Origin: Phycisphaerae bacterium
GTDB taxonomy: Bacteria; Planctomycetota; Phycisphaerae; UBA1845
DNA: 64,000 nt
Reading direction: 5' to 3'
NCBI GenBank assembly: GCA_024102815.1
Contig: JAGFJJ010000006.1
Location: 124,001-188,000, forward strand
A program made the position numbers and the translations under genes. Below the pieces are notes generated by a model. The model saw only the letters and a list, made by a program, of their open reading frames with translations. It was not told the origin of the DNA and searched no databases. Shown piece by piece: positions 2,110 to 55,293 of the stretch; position 1 is the stretch's first letter, and each line of letters starts with the position of its first letter.

Positions 2110-3582
2110 CTAGAGCAGCGACAGAATCTGTGCCGCTTGCTGATTCACGACACCCAGCAGGCTGATGCCCGACTGGATAAGAACCTGCTGCTTGTTCAAG
2201 TTCGACGTGGCCACCGCGAAGTCGGCATCGCCGATGACGCTCTCGGCCTCGGAAAGTCCGACTTGAGAAGCCTGCAGTGAATTGATGGCGCTACCGACCT
2301 GGAATTTCTGGAATCCGCCGATTCGGCCGCGGATACTGGCCACCTGGCTGACCGCATCGCGGATGGACAGCAGCGCCCCCGCAGCGTCGGTTGCCAACGC
2401 CGCGGCGGAACCGGATCGCAGCTCGGAGAGGCGTACGGTCCCGTTTCCACCACCGAGTTGGAAGGTGGACAACGAGTCGATGCCGATCGTCTGGCGCGTG
2501 TCCGTCGTCGTACCCAATTGGAAGGTCGCGCCGCCGGACGCCTGGACCGTGAAGCTCGTCGTCGTGTTGGCCGTGTTGCCCTTGCCGAAGTCATCACCGA
2601 GCGTAAACGACAGGCTCAGGCCGTTGGCACTGTATACAACGTCCAGACCATCCGTGCCGGCCGTCTGTCCGTTGATTTGAATGTTCGCGTCTGTTCCGGA
2701 GGTCTTGGCAACGTTCTGCACGTCATTGGCCGTGCTGCTGTCCGTCGTCGCCGTTCCGTAGCTGCTGTTCACGTACCCCCCGGAAAGCACCTGCACGCTG
2801 ACGAACGCATCCTCGCCATACGTCGTCGAGTTCAGCCCGATGTTGGCCGCGTTCTGAATCGCAGAAACACCGGTCTGGTCCTTGGCGGCGTTGATGGCGG
2901 TGACGACTTCCGCCTGCGTCAGGCTGCTGGCAATGGTCAGCGTCGCGGCGCCGAGCGTTCCCTGGATGGTCACCTGGGTCGTACCCGATGACCGCGTCGT
3001 CGACGCTCCACCGAATGTGGCAAAGGTCGACGTGGCAAGCTGGGCCGATGCCACCCGCGTCACCGTGAGCGACGTGTCCGACGTCGACTGGCTTCGCGAA
3101 TAGACGCGCAGGTTGGAAAGGTTGCTGTTGCCTGCAACGCCCGTGGTCTGAACGCTGAACGTACCGTCCAGCAGCTTCTTCCCGTTGAAGTTCGTGGTGC
3201 TCACGATTCGATCGATCGCCGTCAGGGCGTCGTCGATCTGCGACTGGTTCGCGGCGATCTCCGCATCGGTGAGATTGGCCGACGACGTCGACGACGTCAC
3301 CAGGGTCTCAATCTCGTTCAGCAGGTTGGAGATCTCGCCGAAGGCGGAGTCCGCCACGGAAAGAATCGCGTCCGTCCGCTGGTTGTTGGTCAGCGAGGAC
3401 TCGACGGCGATGCGTTCCGCCTGAAGGAGCGACAGGGCGATCAGACCGGCCGGGTCGTCCTTTCCGCTGTTGATGCGTTTTCCCGTCGTGAGTTGGGAAA
3501 TGGTCTTTTCCTGCGCCGCGGTGTTGCGGTTCAGAATACTCAGCAGTTGAATCGTGTTCGTGTTGGTGACGGTCAAGGCCAT
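2110..3582 (-). CDS. fliC: Flagellin
   Basis: 490 residues from the ATG at 3582, which has AAAGGGGG nine bases upstream; an upstream in-frame extension to 3642 is not needed. The N-terminal D0/D1 coiled coil (about residues 1-150: TGKRINSGKDDPAGL, then QRTDAILSVADSAFGEISNLL) and the C-terminal one (last 90 residues: RDAVSQVASIRGRIGGFQ to the Leu-rich end) are typical of flagellin. The middle 250 residues are a variable Thr/Ser/Asn-rich surface domain. The protein polymerises to form the flagellar filament after type III export. No other flagellar gene is in the window, so it stands alone between lysE and crcB loci. A sigma-28 promoter was sought upstream and not convincingly found. Confidence 0.95.
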   Translation of the reverse strand: MALTVTNTNTIQLLSILNRNTAAQEKTISQLTTGKRINSGKDDPAGLIALSLLQAERIAVESSLTNNQRTDAILSVADSAFGEISNLLNEIETLVTSSTSSANLTDAEIAANQSQIDDALTAIDRIVSTTNFNGKKLLDGTFSVQTTGVAGNSNLSNLRVYSRSQSTSDTSLTVTRVASAQLATSTFATFGGASTTRSSGTTQVTIQGTLGAATLTIASSLTQAEVVTAINAAKDQTGVSAIQNAANIGLNSTTYGEDAFVSVQVLSGGYVNSSYGTATTDSSTANDVQNVAKTSGTDANIQINGQTAGTDGLDVVYSANGLSLSFTLGDDFGKGNTANTTTSFTVQASGGATFQLGTTTDTRQTIGIDSLSTFQLGGGNGTVRLSELRSGSAAALATDAAGALLSIRDAVSQVASIRGRIGGFQKFQVGSAINSLQASQVGLSEAESVIGDADFAVATSNLNKQQVLIQSGISLLGVVNQQAAQILSLL

Positions 3583-3867
3583 GTCTGTAACCCCCTTTGG
3601 ACTCGGAAGCCTCTGCGGACGTTTCGCCCTCCGAGCAGTCAACTGGAGGCTAAGATATAACTAGGGCCTGCAAGGACTTGACTAATCCCCGCGCAGCTTT
3701 CCCGCGTTCGCGCCATCGAGAAACGCGAATTTCGTCAACTTTTTTTTCTTACGGATTGGGTCCGCTTTCGTGAGCTCGCTTCGGACGTCATGCGAAGTTG
3801 AAGTGAATCGCACCGATTCCCGGGCACGCTCAGGATCTCAGCGACATCGATTGGTGACGAATTCGGA

Positions 3868-4233
3868 CTACGCGCCGCTGCCCGCATCATCCGCCGGCGG
3901 GTTGTCCGCGCGATAACGAAGTACCTTTGCCGCTTCGAGCGTGACCAGACCTTCCCGGACCATCTCGTCGATGTGCGGCAGAAACGCCTCGATCCGCTCC
4001 CGCTGGTCGATAATCTCGATGACCATGGGCAGATCCTCCGAGAGTCGCAGCACCTTTGTCGTATGCAGGCGCGAATGTGCCCCGAACCCCATGACGCCCC
4101 GCAGCACCGTCGCCCCGGCCAGGTGCATCTCTCGCGCTTTTAGCACGATGGCCTCATACAGCGGCCGGCCCTGCCATTTGTCGCTTTCCCCGATGAATAT
4201 TCGCAGCAGGTGACCCTCTTCGGGAATCTTCAC
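3868..4233 (-). CDS. DUF190 domain protein, CrcB-associated
   Basis: 121 residues from a GTG at 4233, with GGAGGG upstream. The family signature is clear: LRIFIGESDKWQGRPLY near the N-terminus, then GATVLRGVMGFG and LPMVIEIID. DUF190 proteins are small ferredoxin-like-fold proteins commonly encoded next to crcB fluoride channels; their exact job is unknown, and regulation or sensing has been proposed because of a PII-like fold. Here the start lies only four bases beyond the crcB stop, so the pair is certainly one transcription unit. The longer reading frame back to 4299 runs inside crcB and is unlikely to be used. Confidence 0.85.
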   Translation of the reverse strand: MKIPEEGHLLRIFIGESDKWQGRPLYEAIVLKAREMHLAGATVLRGVMGFGAHSRLHTTKVLRLSEDLPMVIEIIDQRERIEAFLPHIDEMVREGLVTLEAAKVLRYRADNPPADDAGSGA

Positions 4234-4237
4234 GGAC

Positions 4238-4621
4238 CTACCCTCCGGCAAGCAGAACACTCGTCCGATAGCCCGCCCACGCCGCACCCAGCCCGACAAT
4301 CGTACTCAACGCCACGTTGGCCAGCGCTCGCCCGAATTGCCCTTCGCCCACGAACGCCAACGTCTCCCACGCATACGTGGAATACGTCGTAAAGCCCCCG
4401 AGCACGCCGATGAGCAGCGCCGCGCGATGCTCCTCGCGCACCAGCGACTGCTCGGCCAGCAGGTGCGCGAGCAGCCCGATCAGGAAGCAGCCGCAGACAT
4501 TGACAACCAGCGTTCCCCAGGGAAACGTCCCTTTCGTCCCCTGCTGCACCCAACCCGAGACCAGATAGCGCAGCACCGAGCCCGTCGCCCCACCGGCCGC
4601 GATCCACAACAGCTTCACCAT
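4238..4621 (-). CDS. crcB: CrcB/Fluc-type fluoride channel
   Basis: 127 residues from ATG 4621 (GAGCGAGG upstream), the usual length of CrcB. Four membrane segments are visible. The motifs FPWGTLVVNVCGCFLIG (TM2) and GVLGGFTTYSTYAWE (TM3 with the Phe and Ser/Thr track lining the fluoride pore) match the family. It works as a dual-topology dimer in the inner membrane and lets toxic fluoride leak out of the cell. A longer frame to 4729 overlaps the divergent gene and is not preferred. No fluoride-riboswitch core was recognised in the 120 bases upstream. It is co-transcribed with the DUF190 gene. Confidence 0.92.
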   Translation of the reverse strand: MVKLLWIAAGGATGSVLRYLVSGWVQQGTKGTFPWGTLVVNVCGCFLIGLLAHLLAEQSLVREEHRAALLIGVLGGFTTYSTYAWETLAFVGEGQFGRALANVALSTIVGLGAAWAGYRTSVLLAGG

Positions 4622-4743
4622 ACCTCGCTCCGGCAACGCATCGTCGGCTCCTGGGATGTCAACGGATGGGTTCAGCCTACGCACCGGCAACGTGATCCGC
4701 AAGTTGCAGTATGCCGGTGACGCCCGCACGGCCCCACGTTACG

Positions 4744-5556
4744 ATGAGCACCATGTCCGGCCCGCAGCGCATCGTCTGCCTCACCGAAGAAACCACCGAA
4801 ACGCTCTACAGCCTGGGCGAGCAGGATCGCATCGTCGGCATCAGCGCCTTCACCGTCCGCCCGCCTGAAGCGCGCCGCGACAAGCCCGTCGTGTCGCAGT
4901 ACATCCGCGCCGACGTGGAAAGAATCCTCGCAGTGAAGCCCGACCTCGTGCTGGCCTTCTCCGACCTCCAGGCCGACATCTGCGCCGATCTCATCCGCCG
5001 CGGACTCGCCGTGCACTGCTTCAACCAGCGAAACGTCGAGAGCATTCTGGAGATGATCCGCACGCTGTCGCGTATGGTGGACGCGGCCGACGAGGGCGAG
5101 CGCTTGTGCAATGAACTCGAAGGCAACCTGGCGCGCGCTCGCGAGGCCGCCGCCCGACTCCCCTATCACCCGCGCGTCTACTTCGAGGAGTGGCCTGACC
5201 CGATCATCACCGGCATCACCTGGGTATCCGAACTGATCGAGATCGCCGGCGGAATCGACTGCTTCGCCGACAATCGCGGCATTGGGTCCGCGAAGGACCG
5301 CGTCGTCTCGCCGGAAGAAGTGCTCCGCCGCGAGCCCGATCTCTATCTGGCTTCGTGGTGCGGGAAGAAGTTCAACCTCAACGCCGCCAAGGCTCGGCCC
5401 GGATTCGCCGACGCCCCGTTTCTGCGCGAAGGGCGCTTTGCGGAAATCGACTCCTCGATCATACTTCAACCCGGCCCGGCCGCGCTCAGTGACGGCCTCG
5501 CTGCGCTGGAGCGCGAGATCGCCCGCGTGGCGGAGATTGTAGGGTGCGTCCCCTGA
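4744..5556 (+). CDS. Cobalamin-binding / periplasmic-binding-fold (BtuF-like) protein without signal peptide
   Basis: 270 residues in the helical-backbone-lobe fold of vitamin B12 and siderophore binding proteins: RIVCLTEETTETLYSLG at the start, DLVLAFSDLQADICADL, GITWVSELIEIAGG and EEVLRREPDLYL. There is no signal peptide or lipobox, so it probably stays in the cytoplasm, and no permease or ATPase gene is adjacent. Such free-standing proteins are annotated as cobalamin-binding proteins; their ligand and role are not established. ATG 4744 or 4753 are both possible, each with a weak ribosome-binding site. The last four codons and the stop lie inside the palindromic repeat at 5541-5562, so the C-terminus (GCVP) is repeat-encoded. 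Confidence 0.8.
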   Translation: MSTMSGPQRIVCLTEETTETLYSLGEQDRIVGISAFTVRPPEARRDKPVVSQYIRADVERILAVKPDLVLAFSDLQADICADLIRRGLAVHCFNQRNVESILEMIRTLSRMVDAADEGERLCNELEGNLARAREAAARLPYHPRVYFEEWPDPIITGITWVSELIEIAGGIDCFADNRGIGSAKDRVVSPEEVLRREPDLYLASWCGKKFNLNAAKARPGFADAPFLREGRFAEIDSSIILQPGPAALSDGLAALEREIARVAEIVGCVP

Positions 5557-6136: not shown

Positions 6137-6970
6137 CTACGCCGACTGCAACGGTGCCGGCTCCTGGGCGGGCAAGCTCTCCGAACTGCTTTCGTCCGCC
6201 TTCGGCTCCTCCAGCACGCGGCTCAGCCCCCCGCCCTCCCGCTTCCACCAGATCAACCGCAGCGCCCCCGACTCGTCCTCCACCAGCGCCGTGCAGTTCT
6301 CCACCCAATCCCCCGTGTTGATGTAGAGCACGCCCTCGACCTCGCGCATGCCCGGCTGGTGGATGTGCCCGCAGATCACCCCTTCCACGTCCTGCCGCTT
6401 GCCTTCCTTGGTCAGCAGCTCCTCGAAGCGGGTCATGAACTTCACCGCCTGCTTCACCCGCCGCTTGATCGCCCCCGACAGGCTCCAATACGGCCAGCCG
6501 AACCACCGCCGCACCGCATTCACCATCCGGTTGATCACCACGAGGTAGGCGTAGATGGAGCTTCCCAGGTGCGAGAGCCACCCATGGTACTGCACGACCG
6601 TATCGAACTCGTCCCCATGGAGCACGAGGAACCGCCGGTTGTCCGCGGTCACGTGCACCGTGTTCTGCACCACCTCCACGTCGCCGAACTGGTATCCGAT
6701 AAAGTCGCGGAAGAAGTCGTCGTGGTTGCCGGGGATAAAGATGATCTTGGCGCCCTTGCGGGAACGCTTCAGCAGCTTGTGGATGACATCGTTGTACTGC
6801 GCGGGCCAGTACCACTTCTTCCGCAGGGCCCAGATATCCACGATATCGCCCACGAGGTAGAGATAGTCGCAGTGCAGCGAGTCCAGGAAATCATACAGCG
6901 CCTCCGACTGGCAGTCGCGCGTGCAGAGGTGAACGTCGGAAATCCAGACGCTGCGGTAAAAAGTCTTCAT
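6137..6970 (-). CDS. PlcP/LpxH-like metallophosphoesterase, paralog 1 (with glycosyltransferase)
   Basis: 277 residues, calcineurin-like. The dimetal ligands are visible: SDVHL (residues 11-15), GDIVD (41-45), GNHDDF (81-86), LHGDEFD and CGHIHQP. Tracts such as KRSRKGAKIIFIPGNHD, FGDVEVV, LPYWS-like WPYWSLSGA and GDWVENCTAL match the group that includes Sinorhizobium PlcP, a phospholipase C that frees diacylglycerol, rather than classical LpxH, although databases often name both UDP-2,3-diacylglucosamine diphosphatase. ATG 6970 overlaps the stop of the glycosyltransferase gene by four bases (ATGA), so the two are translationally coupled. A closely similar paralog is at 52532-53368; both proteins even end in QSA. 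The substrate is inferred, not shown. Confidence 0.85.
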   Translation of the reverse strand: MKTFYRSVWISDVHLCTRDCQSEALYDFLDSLHCDYLYLVGDIVDIWALRKKWYWPAQYNDVIHKLLKRSRKGAKIIFIPGNHDDFFRDFIGYQFGDVEVVQNTVHVTADNRRFLVLHGDEFDTVVQYHGWLSHLGSSIYAYLVVINRMVNAVRRWFGWPYWSLSGAIKRRVKQAVKFMTRFEELLTKEGKRQDVEGVICGHIHQPGMREVEGVLYINTGDWVENCTALVEDESGALRLIWWKREGGGLSRVLEEPKADESSSESLPAQEPAPLQSA

Positions 6971-8061
6971 GACGGCGTGTTCCGTACGTCGGCCGGACGG
7001 GCGGCGCAAAGCTCACCCGCAAAGCACTCGATCGCCTCCAACGCCTCCAGCTCACCGTCGCGCCGATCCCGCTTCACGTTGCGAAGGAACTTTTCCTCGT
7101 CGGCCAGGAACTCGCGAATCACCGTCGCCGATACGTGACGGCGCTTCACCTGTCGGCCGATGCCCAGCTTGTCAATCTGGTGCGCGTTGAGCCGCTGCTC
7201 GATGCAGTTGATGGGCATACCCAGAATGGGCTTGCCGAAGTAGAGCACTTCACCCATGAGCTGGTTGCCCGTGGTCGCGAAGACCGCCCGGCAACCGGCC
7301 AGGTCCTCGATGAACGGCAGATTGGCCAGTGGCTTGAACTGGATGTTGCCCTGCAATCCGCGCCGCGGCGTGCCGTAAACCTTGACGGGAACATCCAAAC
7401 CAAGCAGCGCCTTTTCCACCCGCGGCGTGAACTCGGCCGACCCCGTACTCAGGTAGACCAGAAGATAGTCCCCGCGCGTCGGCTCCGTCTGCCGCACTTC
7501 CGTACGTATCACCGGACCCACCACGCAGACCCCCGGACGACGCGCCGGCGCCGTGAAGAAACTCGACACGATCACCCGCTCGCTGGTCCCGAAAAGCATG
7601 CGATACGCGGCCGCGTTGGTCCGGCAGCGGAGCCGGTCCATCGGCGAAAGATCAAGCCGGCAATGAACCAGCAACCCGAAGTGATCGAAGCTGATGCGCG
7701 GAACGCCCATCCGCCGCGCCGCCCAGAGGGTCAGCGCCTCGGAATCCGAAATCACCACGTCGGCGCGGAAGTCGCGGAGGATGTCCTGCACCATGTCCGT
7801 CGCCGGTCCGTGGAGCCAGAAATCAAACACCGCCGGCGCGTTGCGCGTCACCGTCAGGTAGGGTGAAAGCTCCCCGCCGACCGTGTAACGATGTTGCAGC
7901 GTGGGGATGCGTACCGGTGAAAAATCCGGCCAGAGAGCCTCGTAGGCATTGCCGCCCGCCAGAATGAGCAGCTCATGGCGAGCGGCCAGATGCGGCAGCA
8001 CCGCCCGAGCCCGCATGGCGTGGCCGCGCCCGTATCCGTGAATCCCGTAGGCGATTCTCAT
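6967..8061 (-). CDS. Glycosyltransferase, MJ1255/GT28-like, coupled to the PlcP-like gene
   Basis: 364 residues with a GT-B layout. The N-terminal half opens with IAYGIHGYGRGHAMRA, the glycine-rich nucleotide-fold start typical of MurG/MGDG-synthase relatives. The C-terminal half has LLVYLSTGS, the FATTGNQLMGEVLYFGKPILGMP donor-site stretch and EQRLNAHQIDKLG. No membrane segment is evident, so it likely works at the membrane face. Its stop overlaps the phosphoesterase start, so the two products probably act in one pathway. Plausible acceptors are diacylglycerol (as with the unrelated Agt partner of PlcP in marine bacteria) or a lipid A precursor; the first is favoured by the context but is inference. 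Confidence 0.8.
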   Translation of the reverse strand: MRIAYGIHGYGRGHAMRARAVLPHLAARHELLILAGGNAYEALWPDFSPVRIPTLQHRYTVGGELSPYLTVTRNAPAVFDFWLHGPATDMVQDILRDFRADVVISDSEALTLWAARRMGVPRISFDHFGLLVHCRLDLSPMDRLRCRTNAAAYRMLFGTSERVIVSSFFTAPARRPGVCVVGPVIRTEVRQTEPTRGDYLLVYLSTGSAEFTPRVEKALLGLDVPVKVYGTPRRGLQGNIQFKPLANLPFIEDLAGCRAVFATTGNQLMGEVLYFGKPILGMPINCIEQRLNAHQIDKLGIGRQVKRRHVSATVIREFLADEEKFLRNVKRDRRDGELEALEAIECFAGELCAARPADVRNTPS

Positions 8062-50998: not shown

Positions 50999-51652
50999 TT
51001 ACCACACGCCGGGCAGAAGGCGATAGCGAACGCGCGCGGCATAGTCGGCATAGCCCGGTAGATTGGCTTGAAGAAACGGGTCTTCGATGGATACGCGCCG
51101 CAAGAGCAGCGCTATCGGAATAACGTTGCACAGAATGGCCCACCACGATCCGAGCATGATTCCGCTGCACAGCAGGAGCAGGAAGGCGCAGGCATATCCC
51201 GGATGGCGGACAAATCCATAAGGTCCGCCGTCCACAACGCGGTGCCCCCGCTCCGACTGGATGCGTACCACCGGTGAGTAGAAGCGGTTAACGCGCATCG
51301 CCCAGACAGTGACCGCGTAGCCTGCCGCACAAACGGCCAGCCCCACACATTGCCAAACGAACGGTACCTGGGACCACCCGAATCTCGCATCGAGTCCGGC
51401 AACGGCGAGATGCAAACCAAAGAATGGCATGATCAGATAGGGTAACTTGCGGTCGCATCCGCCGGGCGGCGTGTGCATACGCTCGCGGATCAGGCCGCGA
51501 TCGACCGTCGTGACCATCGCGACCGGCAGAAGCGCTGTAATCGCGATGAAAGCCCAGAAGAAGGGAAGGTCGAGTCGGCCCGCGCAGCCAAAGAGCAGCA
51601 GCGCGGTAACGGCGATGGACACCAGGATACGGACCCAGACGGCGATGGACAT
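50999..51652 (-). CDS. Isoprenylcysteine carboxyl methyltransferase-like membrane protein
   Basis: 217 residues with about five membrane spans. The C-terminal part has the ICMT/PEMT signature: SERGHRVVDGGPYGFVRHPG with YACAFLLLL, then EDPFLQANLPGYADYAARVRY. Relatives are SAM-dependent methyltransferases that act on prenylated cysteine, phospholipids or small lipophilic molecules; in bacteria the substrate is rarely known. The start is ATG 51652 (GTG 51658 is possible). It is convergent with hpt, with the repeat tract between them. A lipid-methylating role would fit the lipid genes nearby but is only inference. Confidence 0.8.
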   Translation of the reverse strand: MSIAVWVRILVSIAVTALLLFGCAGRLDLPFFWAFIAITALLPVAMVTTVDRGLIRERMHTPPGGCDRKLPYLIMPFFGLHLAVAGLDARFGWSQVPFVWQCVGLAVCAAGYAVTVWAMRVNRFYSPVVRIQSERGHRVVDGGPYGFVRHPGYACAFLLLLCSGIMLGSWWAILCNVIPIALLLRRVSIEDPFLQANLPGYADYAARVRYRLLPGVW

Positions 51653-51783
51653 TGGCACATGCTACCGCGCCGGATCGCACTTCGGACAGTCCTTTGGGGC
51701 CGCGGAAGCACCGCCCAAGGAGCAAGGCACCGAAGACGTACGCCATGGGTCCAAGGGACGAATGTTCAAGAAAGCTCTTTGCA

Positions 51784-52531: not shown

Positions 52532-53368
52532 ATGAAGCAGTATTATCGAAGCGTGTGGATCTCGGACCTGCATCTGGGCAACCGAGACTCGCAGGTCGAC
52601 GCCATCTACAGTTTTCTGGACAGTATTCACTGCGATTACCTGTACCTTGTCGGGGACATCGTTGATCTGTGGTCGTTGAAGCGACGCTGGTTTTGGCCCA
52701 AGCTCTACAACGAAGTGCTTCACAAGGTGCTGAAACGGTCGCGTCGCGGGGCGAAAGTCATTTTCATTCCCGGTAACCACGACGAGTTCTTCCGTGATTT
52801 CGTGGGTTACCGGTTCGGCGACGTCGAGATTCGTTCGCAGGCCATCCATGAGACGGTCGACGGAAAGCGTCTGCTCGTCGTCCACGGCGACGAGTTCGAC
52901 GCCATCGTCGTTTATCACAAGTGGCTGTCGAAGCTCGGGGCGTGGGCATACGACTACCTGATCGCCCTCAATCGCTGGGTGAATGCCTTCCGGCGGGTGT
53001 TGGGGATGCCTTACTGGAGCCTGTCCGGCGCGGCAAAACGGCGGGTCAAGCAGGCCGTAAAATACGTCACGAACTTCGAGAAGGTTCTTTCCGAAAAAGC
53101 CCGCCGGGAGGGCGTAGACGGCGTGATCTGCGGCCACATTCACCAACCGGCCCTTCGCGATGCCGACGGTGTTCTCTACGGTAACTCGGGCGACTGGGTC
53201 GAAAATTGTACAGCCCTGGTGGAAAACGAGTTTGGCGAACTGGAGCTGATCTGGTGGCGTTCAAGGATGGATGTCCGTTGTGTAGACATGGCTGACGCCG
53301 TAGCCTTACCCACGATCATGGAGTGGAACGACGTGGACCTGCCGGAGCCGGTCGTCCAGTCAGCCTAG
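52532..53368 (+). CDS. PlcP/LpxH-like metallophosphoesterase, paralog 2 (with btaBA)
   Basis: 278 residues. Metal-site motifs are SDLHL (11-15), GDIVD (41-45), GNHDEFFRDF, VHGDEFD, CGHIHQP and GDWVENCTALVE. FIPGNHDEFFRDFVGYRFGD and MPYWSLSGAAKRRVKQAVKY closely resemble paralog 1 (6137-6970) and PlcP. PlcP hydrolyses phosphatidylcholine or phosphatidylethanolamine to diacylglycerol under phosphate limitation, and diacylglycerol is exactly the acceptor used by BtaA, whose gene lies downstream. This context makes a phospholipase C role more likely than LpxH here. ATG 52532 has a weak site. A 152-bp gap with a promoter-like sequence separates it from btaB. Confidence 0.85.
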   Translation: MKQYYRSVWISDLHLGNRDSQVDAIYSFLDSIHCDYLYLVGDIVDLWSLKRRWFWPKLYNEVLHKVLKRSRRGAKVIFIPGNHDEFFRDFVGYRFGDVEIRSQAIHETVDGKRLLVVHGDEFDAIVVYHKWLSKLGAWAYDYLIALNRWVNAFRRVLGMPYWSLSGAAKRRVKQAVKYVTNFEKVLSEKARREGVDGVICGHIHQPALRDADGVLYGNSGDWVENCTALVENEFGELELIWWRSRMDVRCVDMADAVALPTIMEWNDVDLPEPVVQSA

Positions 53369-53381
53369 GGCGGGAATGATC

Positions 53382-53411
53382 TTGGCGCTTCTTACCTGTT
53401 TGTAATATAAC
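53382..53411 (+). promoter_or_regulatory. Candidate promoter of btaBA
   Basis: TTGGCG (53382-53387) and TATAAC (53406-53411) with an 18-base spacer, followed by a CTCGTTC/GAACGAG inverted repeat (53415-53421 and 53435-53441). This hints that btaBA may also be transcribed on their own. No clear Pho box was found. Confidence 0.3.
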
Positions 53412-53520
53412 CTCCTCGTTCGTCGGCGCGGTCTGAACGAGGTTCTCACGCGAACAGATCTGCCGGTTCGTTGAATCGGCTGTTACCGCGGCAGGCGCGC
53501 TGCCGCCGGAGCCCTGAAGG

Positions 53521-54129
53521 TTGGCTTCAACCTCCGTACAACGGTTCTATCGATATCACGCCCGGGTCTACGACAAGACCCGCTGGATGATCCTGCACAG
53601 TCGGCGTGAAGCGGTGGATCATCTGGAACTGACGTCGGACGCGGCCGTGATGGAAGTCGGCTGCGGGACCGGTCTGAATTTCCGTTACGTGCTTAGTCGC
53701 CTGGACTCGAAGCGGGGCACGCTGACCGGCGTGGATTTCTCGGCGGATATGCTGAAGCAGGCGCAGCGGCGTGTGGCTGATCGCAGTTGGAACAACGTCG
53801 ATCTTGTCGAGGCCGATGCGTCGACACTTTCGCTGGACCGGAAGTTTGACGGCGTCCTGTTTGCCTACAGCCTGACCATGATCCCCGACTGGCAAGGAGC
53901 GCTGGCGCGGGCCCGGGACCACCTGCGTCCGGGCGGGCGCCTGGTCGTACTGGATTTCGGCATGTTCGGCGGGTGGGGACCACTCGCCCCACTGATGCGG
54001 GCATGGCTGGGCGCGTGTCATGTCAACACGCGGCGCCCCTATGTAGAGCACATGCGCTCACTGTTTCCGAGCTTGTACGTTCGTCATTGGCTCGGCGGGT
54101 ACAACTTCATCGCCGCCGGCACGAGGTAA
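53521..54129 (+). CDS. btaB: BtaB-like N-methyltransferase (betaine lipid synthesis)
   Basis: 202 residues from a TTG at 53521. The class I SAM fold has VMEVGCGTGLNFRYVLSRL (motif I), LTGVDFSADMLKQAQRR (motif II), LVEADASTL and FDGVLFAYSLTMIPDW. Length and layout match BtaB, which adds three methyl groups to diacylglyceryl-homoserine to give the betaine lipid DGTS. The assignment rests on the very next gene, a BtaA homologue; alone it would be only a methyltransferase. The stop lies seven bases before the btaA ATG, so they are one operon. Confidence 0.8.
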   Translation: MASTSVQRFYRYHARVYDKTRWMILHSRREAVDHLELTSDAAVMEVGCGTGLNFRYVLSRLDSKRGTLTGVDFSADMLKQAQRRVADRSWNNVDLVEADASTLSLDRKFDGVLFAYSLTMIPDWQGALARARDHLRPGGRLVVLDFGMFGGWGPLAPLMRAWLGACHVNTRRPYVEHMRSLFPSLYVRHWLGGYNFIAAGTR

Positions 54130-54135
54130 TTGCAA

Positions 54136-55293
54136 ATGATCACGGTGATCGATCTTCCCCAGGCCAAGCGTCGCCCCCTTCTTGAACGGCTCGTTTTCCG
54201 TGGCATCGTGTTCAACATGTCGTGGGAAGACCCGGAGATGGACAGGCGGGCTTTTCAACTCACGGGCGACGACACCGTCCTGTCCATCACGTCCGCAGGC
54301 TGCAATCCGCTGAATTTTCTATGCCAGAGCCCGCGCCGGCTAATCTGTGTGGACGGGAATCCCGCGCAGAATGCGATTCTCGAGTTGAAGCTCGCCGGAC
54401 TGGCGACGCTGGACCACGCCACGTTCTTCGACATTTTCGCCGCTCGCTCTCCGGAGCGGGTCGAGTCGCTTTATCCCAACAAGCTTCGACCGCTCATTTC
54501 GCCACGCTCCCAGAAGTTCTGGGACAAGAATCTGAAGGTTGTCGCCCGGGGTCTGTATCGACACGGCCGGATGGGCGTTTTTTGCCGCATCCTCCGCCGC
54601 TATCTCAAACTGGTGAAAATCAACGACAGCATCATTGAGCGGCTCTTCGCGTGTGACTCGCTCGAGGAGCAGCAGAGCCTTTACGACGGCTGTATCGCGC
54701 CGCGGCTCTGGCGGCGGTCAAGCAAGATGTTCGTGTCCTTCAAACCGCTGATGTATCTGGCGGGGGTTCATCCGAAGCAATTCGAATTGGTGGACGGCCG
54801 CCACAACATGTATGACTACATCCGGGAGCGGATCGAGCACGCGTTGACGAAGGTTCCCGCCAAGGACAATTACTTCCTCAGTCAGGCCATTTCCGGACGT
54901 TTCCGGGGCAATCACGTGCCGCCTTACCTGCTGGAAGAGAACTTCGAGACGCTGCGTAACAACCTCGACCGGGTGGAGATCGTCAACGGCTGGCTGGAGC
55001 CATACTTGAACAGCCAGCCTGCCGGCTCGATCAACAAGTTCAATCTCCTGGACATATTCGACTGGATGCCGGCGACGGCGTTTGAGAGCACGTTACAAGC
55101 CGTACTGCGAGCGAGCGCCCCGGACGCCACCCTCATTTATCGCTCGGGAAGCTATCGGCTCGACCCCCCTGAATCGGTGCGGCCGTTCGTCCACCACCAT
55201 CAGGAGCTGTCCCGGGAATTGCTGGCCATTGACCGCAGCGCCACCTACGGCAGCTTCTACGTGCTCTCGGTCAAGAATGGTGTCGCGGCCTAG
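54136..55293 (+). CDS. btaA: BtaA-like SAM:diacylglycerol 3-amino-3-carboxypropyltransferase (DUF3419)
   Basis: 385 residues from ATG 54136 (GAGGT upstream). The DUF3419 pattern is clear: VFNMSWEDPEMDRRAFQLTG, DTVLSITSAGCNPLNFL, ICVDGNPAQNAILELKLAGL in the SAM site, SKMFVSFKPLMYLAGVHPKQ, NYFLSQAISGRF, PPYLLEENFETLRNNL and NLLDIFDWMP. BtaA moves the aminocarboxypropyl group of SAM onto diacylglycerol to make diacylglyceryl-homoserine, the backbone of DGTS, a phosphate-free lipid. The btaB gene directly upstream and the PlcP-like gene before it complete a likely pathway from phospholipid to betaine lipid. Confidence 0.88.
   Translation: MITVIDLPQAKRRPLLERLVFRGIVFNMSWEDPEMDRRAFQLTGDDTVLSITSAGCNPLNFLCQSPRRLICVDGNPAQNAILELKLAGLATLDHATFFDIFAARSPERVESLYPNKLRPLISPRSQKFWDKNLKVVARGLYRHGRMGVFCRILRRYLKLVKINDSIIERLFACDSLEEQQSLYDGCIAPRLWRRSSKMFVSFKPLMYLAGVHPKQFELVDGRHNMYDYIRERIEHALTKVPAKDNYFLSQAISGRFRGNHVPPYLLEENFETLRNNLDRVEIVNGWLEPYLNSQPAGSINKFNLLDIFDWMPATAFESTLQAVLRASAPDATLIYRSGSYRLDPPESVRPFVHHHQELSRELLAIDRSATYGSFYVLSVKNGVAA

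Follow-up and report, generated by a model that had tools for sequence, protein, structure and literature searches.

Can a planctomycete exchange its phospholipids for a phosphate-free betaine lipid by means of three adjacent genes? The question is raised by a locus in a 64,000-nucleotide stretch of DNA (hereafter the window) from a 5.09 Mb Phycisphaerae-type planctomycete genome, the named relatives of which are MAGs from Phycisphaerae or elsewhere in Planctomycetota. The preliminary description of this DNA, made from the letters alone, placed a phosphoesterase, a BtaB-like methyltransferase and a DUF3419/BtaA homologue in succession on one strand, and all three are confirmed as intact open reading frames of the forward strand (Table 1). 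The seven-base junction that it gave for btaB and btaA is right in substance: 6 bases lie between the btaB stop and the btaA ATG, a gap that shrinks to 0 should btaA start at the in-frame TTG (54130). No terminator-like site was found in the 152 bases between plcP1 and btaB, and across this gap the two genes may or may not be co-transcribed.

Table 1. Features of the window considered in this study
Feature	Position	Strand	Description
plcP1	52532..53368	+	278 aa; calcineurin-like metallophosphoesterase, PlcP-type intracellular phospholipase C; assigned by 49.8% identity, tree and metal-ligand motifs
plcP-btaB intergenic stretch	53369..53520	+	152 bp
btaB	53521..54129	+	202 aa; SAM-dependent N-methyltransferase (DGHS to DGTS, predicted); groups with BtaBs, 95/98
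btaA	54136..55293	+	385 aa; DUF3419, predicted SAM:diacylglycerol 3-amino-3-carboxypropyltransferase of a third BtaA lineage
plcP2	6137..6970	-	second PlcP paralogue, 66% identical; ATG overlaps glycosyltransferase stop by 4 bases
glycosyltransferase (PF13528)	6967..8061	-	paired with plcP2

The combination of plcP with btaA and btaB is already known. As Sebastian et al. (2016, PMC4796936) describe for Phaeobacter sp. MED193, plcP is followed by btaA and btaB in what has been termed the type 1 arrangement; phosphate-starved cells of that strain require plcP for DGTS, which disappears when the gene is deleted and is regained upon complementation. The window likewise has btaA and btaB downstream of plcP1 on the same strand. 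It differs from the MED193 locus in its planctomycete host, in the deep lineage of its BtaA, in the placement of btaB before btaA, in the lack of a recognised Pho box of the enterobacterial-type consensus, and in the possession of an additional PlcP-glycosyltransferase cassette. A gene for a membrane methyltransferase of the PEMT/ICMT type, which may or may not act on a lipid, lies near the trio on the opposite strand (50999-51658).

Identity of the phosphoesterase

The first gene of the locus could be mistaken for lpxH, in which case a lipid A enzyme would merely adjoin btaB-btaA. PlcP1 does match LpxH models and structures weakly, most automatic annotations give its relatives that name, and the host, which encodes LpxC, makes lipid A precursors. 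We nevertheless consider this reading extremely improbable. In a tree of 25 proteins that included PlcP and LpxH references (among the latter 8s7f, 98.5% identical to E. coli LpxH), the two families are split with support of 100/100 and a branch length of 6.1, and both PlcP1 and PlcP2 fall with the PlcPs of Sinorhizobium meliloti and Pseudomonas aeruginosa, in a planctomycete subclade (100/99). Such a tree had been proposed in the preliminary description as a check, and it separates the window protein from LpxH with full support. Identity of PlcP1 to the S. meliloti PlcP homologue is 49.8% over the aligned region. When aligned with the S. meliloti and P. aeruginosa proteins, PlcP1 is complete for the calcineurin-type metal-ligand motifs that were checked (DxH, GD, GNHD, HGD and GHxH), which it has as SDLH, GDIVD, GNHD, HGDEFD and GHIH. 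The third of these is GNHD in both copies of the window, whereas the LpxH proteins of the tree have GNRD, a mark of that family.

The only Pfam match of PlcP1 is the calcineurin-like domain, and its scores against the two NCBIfam LpxH models (44.5 bits against a cut-off of 134, and 39.9 against 190) are far below threshold. Moreover, the host encodes LpxI as well as LpxC, and therefore PlcP1 is dispensable for lipid A synthesis; LpxI is likewise present in 58 of 60 relatives. On the strength of the tree, the GNHD motif, the scores below cut-off and the separate LpxI we reject an LpxH identity, and on sequence grounds the phosphoesterase is a PlcP. The P. aeruginosa reference protein is 47% identical to that of S. 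meliloti and is encoded directly upstream of a glycosyltransferase; for the characterised PA3219, 46% identity to S. meliloti PlcP and the same glycosyltransferase neighbour have been published (PMC8528852). The expectation that PlcP is usually mislabelled is borne out among plasmid-borne relatives, nearly all annotated ones of which are named UDP-2,3-diacylglucosamine diphosphatase. Such labels conceal the betaine-lipid trait in databases.

A third lineage of BtaA

The window BtaA matches PF11899 (DUF3419) with an E-value of 8e-91 and 305 bits against a cut-off of 28.2. DUF3419 does not consist of BtaA alone, as some members adjoin genes for a UbiA prenyltransferase and an AMP-binding protein, or a CoF synthetase gene; examples outside the BtaA clade are encoded at positions 3835-4935 of locus L048 and 2992-4065 of locus L053, and their neighbours suggest another pathway of the aminocarboxypropyl type. 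In a tree of 43 DUF3419 proteins, the window protein, for which a BtaA assignment had been made at the outset, is located inside the btaB-linked BtaA clade (100/98) together with proteins of rhizobial btaA-btaB operons, and the other DUF3419 proteins are outside it. The adjoining methyltransferase falls among the BtaBs and is separated from methyltransferases of other kinds (95/98). An AlphaFold model of BtaA (pLDDT 91, pTM 0.91) resembles class I SAM methyltransferases with Z of 13-15, mostly over 150-180 aligned residues, a shared fold that alone is not proof of function; as modelled, the protein has a class I SAM-binding fold. Searches by sequence returned no relatives of solved structure, and no viral relatives of BtaA were found.

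Three lineages make up the btaB-linked clade of this tree. Lineage a comprises rhizobial proteins and those of certain genomes from the host's class, and lineage b those of other planctomycetes, both with the order btaA-btaB. Lineage c, to which the window belongs, has the order btaB-btaA and in this sample is confined to Planctomycetota. The identity of lineage c proteins to rhizobial BtaA is only about 30%, and we know of no member that has been assayed. This uncharacterised deep lineage is, in our opinion, the most interesting part of the locus. Its deep separate branch, the reversed gene order, the want of a known assayed member and the existence of other DUF3419 groups with unrelated neighbours would all be compatible with synthesis of some other, related amino-acid or betaine ether lipid, or with use of an acceptor other than diacylglycerol. 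This alternative appears improbable to us, since the window protein has the residues that are constant in lineages a, b and c yet different in most other DUF3419 proteins (C56, Y141, G147, Q215, Y246 and L305 among them), and has a BtaB partner.

Several irregular loci were encountered. A suspected BtaA-BtaB fusion in genome G119 was rejected, because open frame 948 extends btaA upstream and ends before btaB. Genome G017 (L016/L021; L142) has btaA without an adjacent btaB and, on another contig, a btaB-like gene that groups with the other BtaB lineages. In genome G038 a full btaA is followed, some 3 kb downstream, by a partial duplicate of roughly its C-terminal 100 residues (L014 5555-5854, reverse strand). 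The btaA of S. meliloti Ak57 (L046 2887-4133) is a two-piece match without an annotated gene, and hence is frameshifted or contains a sequencing error.

Gene linkage, proposed pathway and phosphate control

The tight pairing of btaB with btaA is kept in most of the Phycisphaerae (lineage c) loci retrieved. The full plcP-btaB-btaA trio is adjacent in two genomes only, the host and a member of a second genus of its family (G003, L015/L022), in which plcP overlaps btaB by 4 bases. As the btaB-btaA order persists in most loci and the trio recurs in another genus, chance adjacency is ruled out. Among the 30 loci of lineage b (L084-L113), 15 have plcP immediately before btaA, usually with btaB following, so that linkage between plcP and bta genes is recurrent in the phylum.

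Given the identities of the genes, PlcP1 would hydrolyse glycerophospholipids to diacylglycerol and a phospho-alcohol; phosphatidylethanolamine is likely among its substrates, because the host genome encodes phosphatidylserine decarboxylase. BtaA would then transfer the 3-amino-3-carboxypropyl group of SAM to diacylglycerol, yielding DGHS, which BtaB would convert by three methylations to DGTS, a betaine lipid; phosphate would depart with the head group and could be reused. We consider it highly probable that plcP1-btaB-btaA is a membrane-lipid replacement cassette of this kind, converting phospholipid to DGTS. This reading is based on direct observation of what the genes are, of the families to which their products belong, of conserved residues that are intact and of linkage that is conserved. 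The PlcP tree, the presence of LpxI elsewhere in the genome and the clade membership of BtaA also favour the original suggestion of a phospholipid-to-betaine-lipid cluster, to the extent that sequence comparison can.

Supply and control of the pathway admit a second reading, which agrees with the replacement cassette on the enzymology: BtaB and BtaA may make DGTS constitutively from biosynthetic diacylglycerol, with PlcP a recent local addition and phosphate not the main signal. Among 397 genomes sampled from the class, 23 have lineage c btaA, 45 have plcP and 3 have both, which is the rate expected by chance (2.6). The plcP gene is thus lacking in 20 of the 23 lineage c genomes, and likewise in those of family f4 among the nearest relatives. 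From this chance-rate co-occurrence it follows that most lineage c bacteria would draw diacylglycerol from a source other than PlcP, and most class relatives with this btaA would make betaine lipid without it. Upstream of plcP1, btaB and the plcP2 cassette, no Pho boxes of the enterobacterial type (CTGTCATNNNNCTGTCAT type) were found above chance, nor were any beyond chance in the relatives taken together, the consensus being an enterobacterial one from which the planctomycete motif may differ. Against constitutive synthesis stand the 4-base overlap of plcP and btaB in G003 and the co-occurrence of plcP and btaA in the host's family, where 3 of 3 btaA genomes have plcP compared with 6 of 36 overall (P 0.0028, with three btaA genomes representing the family). 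On balance, we regard constitutive synthesis as a possibility to be taken seriously, if an unlikely one, and favour the replacement cassette, which would be induced at low phosphate. The host genome encodes PhoU domains.

Relation to other systems and the second PlcP cassette

The new elements are the trio in a second genus with its 4-base plcP/btaB overlap, the plcP-btaA-btaB arrangement in other planctomycetes, and a second PlcP gene overlapping that of a glycosyltransferase. In the literature searched, mostly without subscription papers, we found neither a description of plcP-linked DGTS in planctomycetes nor a report of DGTS in Phycisphaerae, for which the trio supplies candidate enzymes of betaine-lipid synthesis. 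As betaine lipids are traditionally ascribed to phytoplankton (PMC4796936), a planctomycete source would change their reading as markers. Sinorhizobium has the same three enzyme families (about 29% identity to the window for BtaA, about 34% for BtaB and 50% for PlcP) but its plcP is unlinked and its order is btaA-btaB.

The existence of lineage c, a third deep branch of BtaA in which the gene order is reversed, is also relevant to where eukaryotic BTA1 came from. Bolik et al. (2023, PMC10685587) report that planctomycete BtaA is basal to the BTA1 of marine eukaryotes and that eukaryotic fusions occur in two domain orders. The fusions unite both activities, and one domain order, BtaB-BtaA, is the gene order of the window, which has two separate bacterial genes instead. 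Our trees, built from bacterial sequences only, contain two deep planctomycete BtaA lineages of opposite gene order. Lineage c might therefore be a bacterial relative or source of the BtaB-BtaA fusions, while the btaA-btaB planctomycete lineage links to the marine BtaA-BtaB fusions as the published tree suggests; we put this forward as a speculation that is rather unlikely to be correct.

The window's other phosphoesterase, PlcP2, which the preliminary description did not name as a PlcP beside a glycosyltransferase, is encoded in a pair with a PF13528 glycosyltransferase that resembles the PlcP-Agt1 pair PA3219-PA3218 of P. aeruginosa (PMC8528852), except that plcP precedes the glycosyltransferase in P. 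aeruginosa whereas plcP2 follows it in the window. By this analogy the plcP2 cassette should make glycolipids, and the host would then probably carry two phosphorus-free routes of lipid replacement, one to betaine lipid and one to glycolipid. The pair is kept in three other genomes (G017, G028 and G035).
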